Below are positions 3,870-19,752 of a DNA stretch of 34,493 bases, piece after piece. The DNA comes from Candidatus Acidiferrales bacterium (GTDB taxonomy: Bacteria; Acidobacteriota; Terriglobia; Acidiferrales; UBA7541): contig JASHRC010000255.1 in assembly GCA_030037525.1 (NCBI GenBank), forward strand, positions 1-34,493, given 5' to 3'. Each line of letters begins with the position of its first letter. The stretch's first letter is position 1. The notes under the pieces were generated by a model. The model ran no database searches. It was given only the letters and a program-made list of their open reading frames with translations, and was not told the origin of the DNA. Position numbers and translations under genes: made by a program.

Positions 3870-4175
3870 CTACTCGCGGCTGCCCGCAAACAGTCGCGCA
3901 ATCGCAACCAGCGCCACAGCACCCACAATCGCCGCCGCGAGGCTGCCCCAAAAACCTCCGGCTGAAATTCCCAGTTTGGTGAAGATCCAGCCGCCAATCA
4001 CTGCGCCGACCAGTCCCAGAATGATATCGACAATGCACCCAAACCCGCGGCCGCGTGTGACCGTTCCCGCAACCCAGCCGGCAATCAGTCCGACCACCAG
4101 CCAGGCGATCAGGCTGTCGGTACGTATTCCGATAAAGTAGACATGGGAGCGCTCGACGAGGGCGAGGGTGGTCAC
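3870..4175 (-). CDS. GlsB/YeaQ/YmgE family stress-response membrane protein
   Basis: Small integral membrane protein (101 aa) with three hydrophobic helices and glycine-zipper-like blocks ('WLVVGLIAGWVAG', 'GFGCIVDIILGLVGAVIGGW', 'GFWGSLAAAIVGAV'). This matches the family once called transglycosylase-associated proteins. Members are often stress-induced, but their molecular function is unknown. The start is GTG at 4175, chosen because GGGAGG lies 7 nt upstream. It is the last gene of a minus-strand run after the agmatinase-like gene, whose stop is 15 nt upstream, so it is probably co-transcribed with it. Confidence 0.8.
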   Translation of the reverse strand: MTTLALVERSHVYFIGIRTDSLIAWLVVGLIAGWVAGTVTRGRGFGCIVDIILGLVGAVIGGWIFTKLGISAGGFWGSLAAAIVGAVALVAIARLFAGSRE

Positions 4176-4190: not shown

Positions 4191-5105
4191 TTATCCCTGG
4201 CAGAAGGCGTAAGCGAGGCACTTATAGACGAGCTTCGCAGCCAGGGCGTCTGAGGCGTGGTGTCCTGCCTGGGGAACCAGATCGACCACGTCCAGGCCCA
4301 CAATCTTCTTATGTCCGGCGACCGCGCGCAAGAGGGAGGTCACTTGATGCCAATCCAGTCCACCGGGCTCGGGCCGGCTGGTAGCCGGCACGATGGAGGG
4401 ATCAAACCCGTCCATGCTGACCGTTAGATATACGCTCGAGCTGATGTCCGCCAGGACCTGAGCGATCCAGCTCTTGAGCGGCAGGCGGGCGATGTCGCAC
4501 GCCCAGTAAATTTTGGTGGGGAGACCGGCGAGATCGTGCGCTTCTTCAGAGGAAATCGAGCGGATGCCCACTTGGACGGCGTGGCACACGTCGGTGACGC
4601 GCCGCATGGCCGAGCCGCTGGTTCGAATGCTCCCCTGGTCCCGGCGCAACGCGGCGTGGGCTCCGATGTGCAGCACGCTCAGATTCCTATACTTCTTGGA
4701 GAGCGCCGAGACCAGCGGCGGCGTGAGCAATTGCTCGCCCCCGAGAGCGACCGGGAATTTTCCGTCTTCGACCAGGGCGCAACCGGCGGTGAAAAGCTCG
4801 GTGACCACTTCGTCGAGCGAGCCGTCCATCGTGTCGATGGCAGCGAGCGTATGGATGCCGATTTCTTTATATGGATCGACCTCGAACTCTTCATCGTAGA
4901 GTTCGAGGTTGCGGCTGGCCGCCAGAATCGCTGCGGGGCCGTTGCGCGTGCCGGGGTGAGAGGTCGCCGAGCACTCCAGCGGAACCGGAAAAATGACCGC
5001 GCGCGAGGACTCGTAACTTGAATGCTCTTCAGGGATGCCGCCGAAGTTTTCGGGCCGTGTGGCCGTGTAGCGGCCCATGCTCAGGTGCGAAGGCTCAAAA
5101 ATCAT
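4191..5105 (-). CDS. Degenerate ureohydrolase (agmatinase/arginase-like) pseudoenzyme
   Basis: 304 aa with the ureohydrolase fold (arginase, agmatinase and formimidoylglutamase family, dinuclear Mn2+ enzymes). The architecture is intact ('GPAAILAASRNLELYDEE', 'RPEPGGLDW', 'IVGLDVVDLVP'), but metal ligands are replaced. 'GGEH' is GGEQ (Gln125). 'DAHxD' is GAHAA (Gly148 and Ala152; His150 kept). The first Asp of 'SxDxDxxDP' is Ser230 (Asp232 kept). The late conserved Glu is Asp275. Four of six expected ligands are gone, so Mn2+-dependent hydrolysis looks impossible by the known mechanism. The frame has no stop or frameshift, so it is probably a maintained non-catalytic protein. ATG 5105 was chosen because the upstream in-frame stretch does not resemble the family; ATG 5078 is possible. 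It lies downstream of inositol-phosphate synthase. Confidence 0.82.
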   Translation of the reverse strand: MIFEPSHLSMGRYTATRPENFGGIPEEHSSYESSRAVIFPVPLECSATSHPGTRNGPAAILAASRNLELYDEEFEVDPYKEIGIHTLAAIDTMDGSLDEVVTELFTAGCALVEDGKFPVALGGEQLLTPPLVSALSKKYRNLSVLHIGAHAALRRDQGSIRTSGSAMRRVTDVCHAVQVGIRSISSEEAHDLAGLPTKIYWACDIARLPLKSWIAQVLADISSSVYLTVSMDGFDPSIVPATSRPEPGGLDWHQVTSLLRAVAGHKKIVGLDVVDLVPQAGHHASDALAAKLVYKCLAYAFCQG

Positions 5106-7493: not shown

Positions 7494-8414
7494 TTAACTG
7501 GCTGGGTCGGACTGTTCGAGCGAGCCACGGTCCCAATGGCCGAGATTCGCTGCTGCTTCGTAGGTGCTATGGAAAAATTCCATCAGCAGCGAACGCGGTT
7601 CGGCTGCCGTGCGCACGTCATCGTAGGCGAGCAGGAATTCGCCGAGCGGCGCGTGATAGAAGGCCTTTGCGGGTCCAACCCGAGCGTTCGGGAACCCGGG
7701 AGGCTCCGGCGCGGCGTAGGCGTAAAACATCGGCGTGGTAATCTCGCCTCCCCCCGGCCACCATCCAGCGCTCGACACTTCGTGTGAGTAGGCCTCGCGC
7801 ATGATGCGGTCGGCCTGGGGGCGTTCGGGCGCCCGGCGGCCGGAGAAGCGCGTCGCCGCCAAATCGAAACTGCCCCAAAAGAAATGTACCGGACTGGCTT
7901 TTCCGATGAACCGTGCGCGAAATTCCTTAAGAATCGTGTCGACCGACACCAGGATTTGCCAGAAGCGCTGCGCGTACTCCGGGTCATACGACGCATGCTG
8001 CCTGTCGCGATCGAAGCGAACCGCACCGGGAATTTCGACTGGCACGGGCCAGAGCTTCGCATCGATCGCAAGCGAGGCGACGGTGGCCAGAAATTCGGCG
8101 TAGAAATCGGCAACGCTGCGGGGAGCGAGCGCAATCGTTTTCGTTTCACCCGTGCTGGTCCTGAATCGCAGTACGTGGGCCGAGAAATCGAACTCCACCT
8201 CGAAAATTCCCGCGGAGTAGGGAATTGCGGAGGTAGTAAGTCCGCGCGCGCTGACGTAGAGCGGGACTTGCCACCAATGGTTCAGTCGCGGCGAGAGCGC
8301 CAACCGCAGTTTGCCCACCATCTGCGTCCACAAGTGAAGCGTTTCACGCGTAGGAGCCCATTCCGCAAGCGGCAGCTCCGGCCACGCCTGCCGAGCCCCG
8401 GAGATGGCCGCCAT
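7494..8414 (-). CDS. DUF5996 family protein
   Basis: 306 aa matching the uncharacterised DUF5996 family: 'WPELPLAEWAPTRETLHLW', 'VGKLRLALSPRLNHWWQVP', 'YVSARGLTTSAIPY' and the late 'STGETKTIALAPRSVADFY'. No membrane segment, signal peptide or known catalytic motif is recognisable. The many Trp/His/Tyr residues near the N-terminus are typical of the family. ATG 8414 was chosen because GGAGG lies 4 nt upstream; a GTG at 8441 would add 9 residues. It is co-directional with the UBP zinc-finger gene, whose stop is 33 nt upstream, so the two may form an operon. It ends 11 nt from the convergent ecsC-like gene. Function unknown. Confidence 0.85.
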   Translation of the reverse strand: MAAISGARQAWPELPLAEWAPTRETLHLWTQMVGKLRLALSPRLNHWWQVPLYVSARGLTTSAIPYSAGIFEVEFDFSAHVLRFRTSTGETKTIALAPRSVADFYAEFLATVASLAIDAKLWPVPVEIPGAVRFDRDRQHASYDPEYAQRFWQILVSVDTILKEFRARFIGKASPVHFFWGSFDLAATRFSGRRAPERPQADRIMREAYSHEVSSAGWWPGGGEITTPMFYAYAAPEPPGFPNARVGPAKAFYHAPLGEFLLAYDDVRTAAEPRSLLMEFFHSTYEAAANLGHWDRGSLEQSDPAS

Positions 8415-18270: not shown

Positions 18271-18707
18271 TTCGAGTGACTCGCAGACTGGAATTTTCGG
18301 CGGCGCATTTCTATCACAACCCGAATCTTTCGGCAGAGGAGAATCGCCGCATCTTTGGCAAATGCAATAACCTGCACGGGCATGGCCACAATTACGTCCT
18401 GGAAGTGACCGTGGCGGGCGAGCCGGATCCGGCCACCGGCATGGTGCTGGATCTCAAGGAGCTGAAGGACATTTTGCAGCGCGAAGTGGCCGAACGGCTG
18501 GACCACCGCCATTTGAATTACGAAGTGCCGGAGCTGGCCGGTCAGATTCCCACGTGCGAGAACGTGGCTCGGCTGATCTGGCAGTTACTGGAGCCGAAGA
18601 TCAACCAGGGGCGGCTCGACCGCGTACGGGTATACGAATCTCCGGACCTGTTTGCCGATTGCACGGCGGAAGCCGATGGTCAACCGGTAGGAGCCGTGGG
18701 TGAGTAG
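18267..18707 (+). CDS. 6-pyruvoyl/6-carboxytetrahydropterin synthase family protein, copy 1
   Basis: 146-aa T-fold enzyme acting on 7,8-dihydroneopterin triphosphate, the product of FolE. Zinc ligands His14 ('FSAAHF'), His39 and His41 ('HGHGHNY') and the catalytic Cys33 ('FGKCNN') are present, as is the late acidic 'VYESPD' pterin anchor. It could make 6-carboxytetrahydropterin (queuosine, QueD) or 6-pyruvoyltetrahydropterin (biopterin-type cofactors). No queC or queE is in the window. The ATG overlaps the glycosyltransferase stop by 4 nt, and its own end overlaps copy 2 by 8 nt. Confidence 0.88.
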   Translation: MIRVTRRLEFSAAHFYHNPNLSAEENRRIFGKCNNLHGHGHNYVLEVTVAGEPDPATGMVLDLKELKDILQREVAERLDHRHLNYEVPELAGQIPTCENVARLIWQLLEPKINQGRLDRVRVYESPDLFADCTAEADGQPVGAVGE

Positions 18708-19116
18708 GCTTCTGAAGCTGTCGCTCACGCGTCGCTACCGCTTTGCCGCGTCGCACCGGCTGTATAGCCCGGCGTTCAGCGAGCAAGAAAACCAGCGGCT
18801 GTACGGAAAATGCGGCAACCCCTACGGCCATGGGCACAATTACATTTTGGAAGTGACCCTGAGCGCGCCGGTGGATCCCCAGACGGGGATGGTCGCAAAT
18901 CTGGGCGAGCTCGATCCATTTGTGGAACGCGAGATCCTCGAGCCGTTCGACCAGAAGTATTTGAACGAGCAGGTCGATGAATTTCGCGCGAGCGTGCCCA
19001 CCGCGGAGAACTTGTGCCGCGAGATTTACAGGCGCCTGGAGAAGTTCCCGGCGGCGCGGCTGGAGAGAGTGCGGATTGAGGAAACCAGCAACAACAGTTT
19101 TGAATACGCGGGGTAG
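18700..19116 (+). CDS. 6-pyruvoyl-tetrahydropterin synthase family protein, copy 2
   Basis: 138 aa, a tandem paralogue of the preceding gene. Zinc ligands His19 ('AASHR'), His44 and His46 and Cys38 ('YGKCGNPYGHGHNY') are intact. This motif is closer to the animal PTPS form (NPNGHGHNY) than to E. coli QueD. The C-terminal 'RIEETSNNSFEY' carries the conserved pterin-binding Glu. The GTG start overlaps copy 1 by 8 nt, indicating translational coupling; folE begins 6 nt downstream. Two divergent copies in one operon suggest two different reactions on the same substrate. Confidence 0.87.
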   Translation: MSRLLKLSLTRRYRFAASHRLYSPAFSEQENQRLYGKCGNPYGHGHNYILEVTLSAPVDPQTGMVANLGELDPFVEREILEPFDQKYLNEQVDEFRASVPTAENLCREIYRRLEKFPAARLERVRIEETSNNSFEYAG

Positions 19117-19122
19117 GGTTCG

Positions 19123-19752
19123 ATGAGGAGCAAATCCACCATGCCAAATGCGGATACGAACACGACGACCGTGGAACTGGCCGAGTCGGGAAACATCGCG
19201 GACCTGGTTCGCAGGATTTTGAGGCAGCTGGGCGAGGATGCCGAGCGCGAGGGGCTGCGGCGCACGCCCGAGCGTTTCGAGCGGGCGCTGCGATTTTTGA
19301 CCAGCGGGTACCGGCAAGACCCGGGGAAGTTGCTGAATGGCGCGATCTTCAGCGTCTGTTACGACGAGATGGTGGTGGTCAAGGACATCGAGCTTTACAG
19401 TCTGTGCGAGCACCATTTGCTGCCTTTTCTTGGCAAGTGCCACGTGGCCTATATCCCCAACAAGAAGGTGGTGGGGCTGAGCAAGATCGCGCGGCTGGTG
19501 AACATGTACGCGCGGCGGCTGCAGATTCAGGAGCGGCTGACGAGCCAGATCGCGCAAACGATCAACGAGCATCTCCGGCCGCAGGGCGTGGGCGTGATCA
19601 TCGAGGCGCGGCATCTGTGCATGGTGATGCGGGGAGTGGAAAAGCAGCATTCTGCGGCTGTCACCAGCGCGATGCTGGGCGTATTTCGCGACAACCAGCA
19701 GACCCGCGACGAATTTTTGTCGCTGGTAAGGGGCAACGGGGCGAAGACCTAG
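19123..19752 (+). CDS. folE: GTP cyclohydrolase I
   Basis: Opens GTP to 7,8-dihydroneopterin triphosphate, the entry point to folate, queuosine and biopterin. 209 aa. Zinc ligands Cys95 and His98 ('[10 protein letters not shown]') and Cys166 ('[14 protein letters not shown]') are present. Other blocks: 'GLRRTPERF', '[20 protein letters not shown]' and the late 'AMLGVFRDN'. An internal ATG at 19141 preceded by GAGGAG is an equally credible start, giving 203 aa. Last gene of the glycosyltransferase-PTPS-PTPS-folE run; its product feeds both PTPS paralogues. Confidence 0.93.

Follow-up and report, generated by a model that had tools for sequence, protein, structure and literature searches.

The probable pseudo-agmatinase gene and its surroundings

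We analyzed a gene for a SpeB-like ureohydrolase in a metagenome-assembled genome (MAG) of a Candidatus Acidiferrales bacterium. This genome (G000) is 4.2 Mb in 286 contigs and 93% complete; the window, that is, the whole stretch of DNA that was analyzed, lies on its contig C64 and has 34,493 nucleotides. The gene, which we call a pseudo-agmatinase (4191-5105, minus strand), is a frame of 304 amino acids uninterrupted by stops. The real start is probably the ATG at 5078 (M10), which would give a protein of 295 amino acids; this start is favored because MSRYT opens nearly all of the orthologues in the genus. In a profile search, the product matched the Arginase family PF00491 (E 1.4e-55). By sequence comparison, the gene is a direct orthologue of an intact acidobacterial ureohydrolase.

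The ureohydrolase fold is predicted to be intact, as the earlier note had supposed. The AlphaFold2 model of the protein had a pLDDT of 90.3 and a pTM of 0.89, and the top PDB matches to the predicted fold were agmatinases (Z 36-37), among them Escherichia coli SpeB (7lol and 7lba) and the agmatine ureohydrolase of Thermoplasma volcanium (3pzl). The protein resembles these agmatinases over the whole length of the fold and scored 179.4 bits on the curated agmatinase model TIGR01230, above the cut-off of 174.3. Unlike them, it lacks the binuclear metal site, the proton shuttle and the Glu that binds the guanidinium; that is, it has the score and the predicted fold of an agmatinase without the full set of six metal ligands, proton-shuttle His and guanidinium Glu.

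There are two further PF00491 genes in G000, on contigs C148 and C129, and both kinds are found in genomes with and without the pseudo-agmatinase. The gene on C148 encodes an arginase by TIGR01229 (300.6 bits). The paralogue on C129 (L003, G000:C129:8335-9192; orthologues L192-L209) is atypical throughout the order, with GGDH changed to SGDC or GGDC and DAHxD mostly DRDAD, and the G000 copy has lost one more ligand (DVD to AVD). Paralogues of this type may form an old subfamily of arginase-like proteins that is non-canonical. We searched G000 for an intact second agmatinase and found none besides the C148 arginase and the atypical C129 paralogue.

On one side of the pseudo-agmatinase is a gene for a GlsB/YeaQ-like small protein (3870-4175, minus strand), a co-directional neighbor in most related loci that persists where the agmatinase has been deleted. 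On the other side is a gene for inositol-3-phosphate synthase (PF07994/PF01658; 5266-6579, minus strand; 437 amino acids, a Pfam match that falls far short of the mycothiol-type NCBIfam model, 23 vs 638 bits). In relatives, the locus consists of a gene for a pyruvoyl-type arginine decarboxylase (PvlArgDC), a gene for a homologue of deoxyhypusine synthase (DHS) on the opposite strand (missing in some), the agmatinase gene and, in most, the glsB-like gene. The synthase gene occupies the place of the decarboxylase and DHS genes in G000 only, and was absent from all 20 related loci that we examined. The suggestion in the earlier note that this neighbor hints at a role is thus unsupported, and we rejected a functional link to inositol-phosphate synthase because the neighbor is unique to G000 among the genomes examined. 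The arginine decarboxylase gene of G000 is separated from the agmatinase gene: it is on contig C12, and its counterpart in G017 is 98% identical. Elsewhere in the window (18371-19752), the translations show two adjacent, differing frames like 6-pyruvoyl-tetrahydropterin synthase, followed by one like GTP cyclohydrolase I.

The catalytic site in G000 and in the genus

We placed the residues of the catalytic site by alignment with orthologues (for Q125, by alignment and sequence) and used the numbering of rat arginase I. Four of the six metal ligands are replaced in the G000 protein (H125Q, D148G, D152A and D230S): Q125 (4731-4733) is at the position of H101, G148 (4662-4664) at that of D124, A152 (4650-4652) at that of D128, and S230 (4416-4418) at that of D232. 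Only the equivalents of H126 and D234 remain, as H150 (4656-4658), which is invariant in a 32-sequence alignment, and D232 (4410-4412). Two more catalytic residues are changed: the general acid H141, the proton-shuttle His, is Ser163 (4617-4619), and the guanidinium-binding E277 is Asp275 (4281-4283). All of these codons are on the minus strand. In addition, a single residue is deleted immediately following the DAHxD segment. The alignment bears out the claim of the earlier note that four ligands are replaced. The late Glu-to-Asp change that it listed is also real, although this Glu binds the guanidinium and is no metal ligand, and the change at the proton-shuttle His had been left out.

It is conceivable that the protein is still a working ureohydrolase that draws an unusual metal set from other residues; it has a high-confidence predicted fold and passes the TIGR01230 cut-off. 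But that cut-off gauges resemblance, not activity, and the site has other residues in place of four ligands, the proton-shuttle His and the guanidinium Glu. Single first-shell ligand changes strongly impair arginase. We consider this alternative very improbable, and we infer from the residues of the site that the G000 protein is enzymatically inactive.

In the genus, which consists of uncultured soil acidobacteria, 16 of the 20 genomes have an orthologue (63-71% identity). In the order we found one in 28 of 95 genomes, and in a sample of 396 genomes from the phylum, in 128. The nearest relative of the G000 gene is 71% identical, and there is no close sister. Outside the genus, all eight catalytic residues were present in each of the 20 orthologues examined, so the replacements in G000 are not due to chance. 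Within the genus, only G012 and G017 have a complete site and the other 14 orthologues are altered. The extent of alteration differs. The G008 and G005 proteins have D128E only and D128N only, respectively, and the G007 protein has H101R, D128N and E277G. D124G, D128E, H141P, D234G and E277G are common to G001, G009 and G018. The seven species of a clade that we call Y have D124G, D128E and D232N in common and retain H101, H126, H141, D234 and E277; together with G124, E128 and N232, these residues are identical in all seven. Of the four residues that the earlier note proposed to check for conservation, only G148 recurs; Q125, A152 and S230 do not, and relatives have other sets of replacements.

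An assembly or sequencing artefact merits practically no weight. G000 is a single MAG of 286 contigs, but the frame of 304 codons is intact, the replacements fall exactly at catalytic positions, and 13 other genomes of the genus are altered at the same positions, by related or different replacements.

Four genomes of the genus have lost the gene. In G003, G006 and G014, which form one clade, and in G010 (loci L130, L131, L132 and L133), it is cleanly deleted between the DHS and arginine decarboxylase genes and glsB, probably by two events; G010 also lacks the DHS homologue. A search between the DHS gene and glsB for remnants of the deleted agmatinase gave chance-level matches only. Given these clean deletions, the old catalytic step is dispensable, and so is any new role of the protein where the gene was lost outright, in probably two lineages.

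Tree comparisons indicate that the site was altered in at least two independent lineages of the genus, one that includes G000 (lineage X) and clade Y. A gene tree calculated without the ligand columns rejected a single clade of Y plus G000, G018, G009 and G001 (AU p 0.0002), and a four-gene species tree rejected X plus Y to the exclusion of the intact G012 and G017 (AU p 0.009). By the gene tree alone, a single clade of all altered members was not rejected (p 0.18). D124G is common to clade Y and to G000, G018, G009 and G001. Since the single-clade trees were rejected, D124G, with the adjacent change of QID to HIG and D128 to E, would have arisen twice or been transferred by recombination. The whole change from QIDAHAD to HIGAHAE is present in two lineages, and the synonymous sites are too few to judge recombination.

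Selection on the retained protein

We compared selection on the intact and altered genes with codon models written for this purpose, both for the whole gene and with the catalytic site split from the rest, on the gene-tree and species-tree topologies. Whole-gene omega was 0.077 for the background and 0.093 for G000; the crowns of Y and of G018/G009/G001 had values of 0.050 and 0.081, respectively. Omega = 1 was rejected for G000 (2dlnL 85), the Y crown (2dlnL 1135) and the G018/G009/G001 crown (2dlnL 296), and the G000 branch was indistinguishable from its intact relatives (2dlnL 0.6). Close pairs agreed (dN/dS 0.027 for G019-G004 and 0.096 for G018-G009); the longer branches come close to saturation at synonymous sites.

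The site and the remainder of the gene behaved differently. For the eight catalytic codons, omega was ~0.001 in the background and in the Y crown, 0.089 in X, and 0.43 in G000, the last not distinguishable from 1. For the 255 codons off the site, omega was 0.0875 in the background, 0.053 in the Y crown, 0.084 (0.0836) in X and 0.080 (0.0803) in G000. The pattern was similar on both topologies. That is, the site was released and constraint on the remainder stayed at its former level, as one would expect of a pseudoenzyme that still has a role. The stem of clade Y had an excess of amino-acid changes relative to the background (2dlnL 20), with an omega not significantly greater than 1.

These results bear on the possibility that the gene is a redundant agmatinase on its way out after the arrival of another route for agmatine. 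Ordinary decay of this kind fits the clean deletions in four genomes, probably two events, and the graded series that begins with one altered ligand in G008 and in G005 and reaches six changed catalytic positions in G000. It does not fit an off-site omega that holds at 0.08 across long neutral distances, the rejection of omega = 1 for G000 and for both crowns, or the lack of any internal stop in the 16 orthologues of the genus when read from their start codons. The codon models rejected relaxed decay of the whole gene, and we regard ordinary decay as distinctly improbable. Purifying selection continued after loss of the site, although the G000 tip (a MAG whose nearest relative is 71% identical) could by omega alone also hold a very recent change. 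The claim in the earlier note that the gene is a maintained pseudoenzyme and not a decaying gene is supported by the dN/dS analysis that it had proposed: omega on the G000 branch was 0.093, omega = 1 was rejected, and release was limited to the catalytic codons. Close orthologues that retain all of the ligands, which the note would have taken as a sign of recent decay, do exist (G012 and G017), but they come with no decay signature.

It is also possible that the protein was re-engineered, with an altered pocket that is still catalytic, uses one metal or none and acts on a different substrate. In clade Y, the replacements and the remaining residues are identical in all seven species, catalytic-codon omega is ~0.001, and the excess of amino-acid changes on the stem precedes this freeze; QIDAHAD became HIGAHAE in two lineages. 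Against this, the catalytic codons of X are still drifting, with several replacement sets, and G000 has only the equivalents of H126 and D234. Such re-engineering is unlikely overall; it may apply to clade Y and is unlikely for the G000 protein.

AguAB and the probable displacement of the agmatinase

The state of the site coincided with a second route from agmatine to putrescine. All 11 genomes whose agmatinase is intact are without the gene for agmatine deiminase (aguA, PF04371); of the 14 whose agmatinase is altered, 12 have it. The gene for N-carbamoylputrescine amidase, aguB, adjoins aguA wherever contigs allow. In G000 the two genes, for a candidate AguAB pathway, are adjacent on contig C210. 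AguA and AguB scored below the NCBIfam equivalog cut-offs and, by eye, retain their catalytic motifs. The X-type and Y-type aguB genes are ~61-68% alike and have no neighbors in common, and parsimony gave two changes for the gains of aguAB. Two forms at different loci fit two acquisitions. In a search of plasmid records for a donor of aguAB, nothing was nearer than 38%.

Counted by genome, the association is strong (0/11 vs 14/18 with an altered or deleted agmatinase; Fisher's test, ~4e-5). An analysis of phylogenetically independent pairs yielded one or two pairs only and was not significant, so the link between aguAB and the altered site is a strong coincidence and not a proven correlation. 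There are exceptions, possibly due to incompleteness: the site of G009 (92% complete) is altered and no aguAB was found in this genome, and G006 and G010 have neither gene.

We considered other triggers. Loss of arginine decarboxylase was rejected, the gene being present in all 29 genomes. G000 and four other genomes of lineage X have lost the DHS homologue of the locus and have a different one elsewhere, which is nearest the "homospermidine biosynthesis protein" model and below its cut-off. Loss of the adjacent DHS homologue was rejected as a general trigger: clade Y keeps the form found at the arginine decarboxylase locus (DHS-A), and G033 and G096 are without DHS-A yet have an intact agmatinase. 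DHS-A and the form found elsewhere (DHS-B) replace each other in the family (loci G000:C272:1388-2302, L135, and L092:6459-7538), although both are present in G014, G095 and G097. At the G001 locus, which is without DHS-A (L086, about 8075-8138), an ORF beside the agmatinase gene ends in ...MAKKKGRGASHVAPPG and resembles a remnant of the start of DHS-A.

The most probable explanation, in our judgment, is that AguAB took over the conversion of agmatine to putrescine and that the old agmatinase was retained as a pseudoenzyme in a non-catalytic role. The ancestor would have had an agmatinase-type ureohydrolase in a polyamine cluster with arginine decarboxylase and a DHS homologue. Lineages of the genus would then have gained the route from agmatine through N-carbamoylputrescine to putrescine (AguA and AguB), after which the old enzyme would no longer have been needed to hydrolyze agmatine or a guanidopolyamine derived from it. 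It is this arrival of AguAB that presumably released the site. In lineage X, the binuclear metal site would have been dismantled under undiminished purifying selection on the rest, and the protein would have been kept, most probably as part of an oligomer in which it is a partner with a structural or regulatory function. In clade Y, a sister lineage, D124G, D128E and D232N would have arisen on one stem branch and then been frozen, and the frozen site suggests that the pocket has gained a new use that is fixed. A more far-reaching version, which we hold only tentatively and think somewhat doubtful, is that a non-orthologous pathway displaced the enzyme at least twice in the genus and that the enzyme was converted each time, to a metal-free scaffold or sensor in one lineage and, in the other, to a protein whose pocket (G124/E128/N232) is new and fixed and would bind a polyamine or do new chemistry.

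Ureohydrolases without a metal site have precedents. The arginase-like protein of Trypanosoma brucei, TbARG, was reportedly the subject of a study by Hai et al. in 2015. It has an arginase fold without the binuclear Mn cluster, and its role is given as unknown in passages of PMC11271267 and PMC8503589. Unlike the G000 protein, it belongs to a eukaryotic arginase lineage, and those passages mention neither replicate losses in one genus nor a link to a pathway takeover. MetCb is the metal-free subunit of a Ni-dependent metformin hydrolase; five of its six ligands are mutated and its active partner needs it (PMC11271267). As in MetCb and TbARG, the predicted fold of the G000 protein is retained and metal-site residues are gone. 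A partner or scaffold role is plausible by analogy with MetCb, which likewise keeps the fold with most ligands mutated. In contrast, the MetCb gene adjoins that of the active MetCa and probably came from duplication, whereas G000 has just one orthologue of the displaced enzyme, with neither a partner gene adjacent to it nor a second PF00491 gene nearby. Candidate partners in G000 are the C148 arginase, the C129 paralogue and polyamine enzymes. In some species of Fusobacterium, a fusion of ornithine decarboxylase (ODC) and arginase/agmatinase has Mn-ligand Asp residues changed to Ser and Asn, according to passages of PMC8503589 and of PMC11271267 (for Mothersole 2022). That domain is part of a fusion that keeps its decarboxylase; the G000 gene stands alone and its loss of the site is associated with aguAB.

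The ancestral locus also resembles the caldomycin route to homospermidine in Thermus thermophilus, which uses CdmS, a DHS homologue, and TtSpeBap (PMC10981699). The kinds of parts are the same (an agmatine source, a DHS homologue and a ureohydrolase), although the acidobacterial DHS-A is below the cut-offs of both the caldomycin synthase and DHS models. By this analogy, caldomycin, and not agmatine, may have been what the ancestral enzyme acted on.

Metal-free ureohydrolases were thus already known (TbARG, MetCb and Fusobacterium). What is new here is replicated loss in one genus, tied to takeover of the pathway, and none of the papers that our literature search covered describes an agmatinase pseudoenzyme from Acidobacteria. 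The G000 protein also serves as a warning for annotation, as a protein deficient in four ligands still passes a curated agmatinase model. Comparisons of pseudoenzymes usually involve catalytic relatives from which they diverged long ago. In this genus all stages are present, from an intact site through one altered ligand, several, and six altered catalytic positions to clean deletion, and in at least two parallel lineages. The genus offers a natural experiment, with replication, on the retention of an enzyme after its displacement. With a plausible trigger in the arrival of AguAB, one could test directly what releases an enzyme from catalysis and why the protein is then kept.
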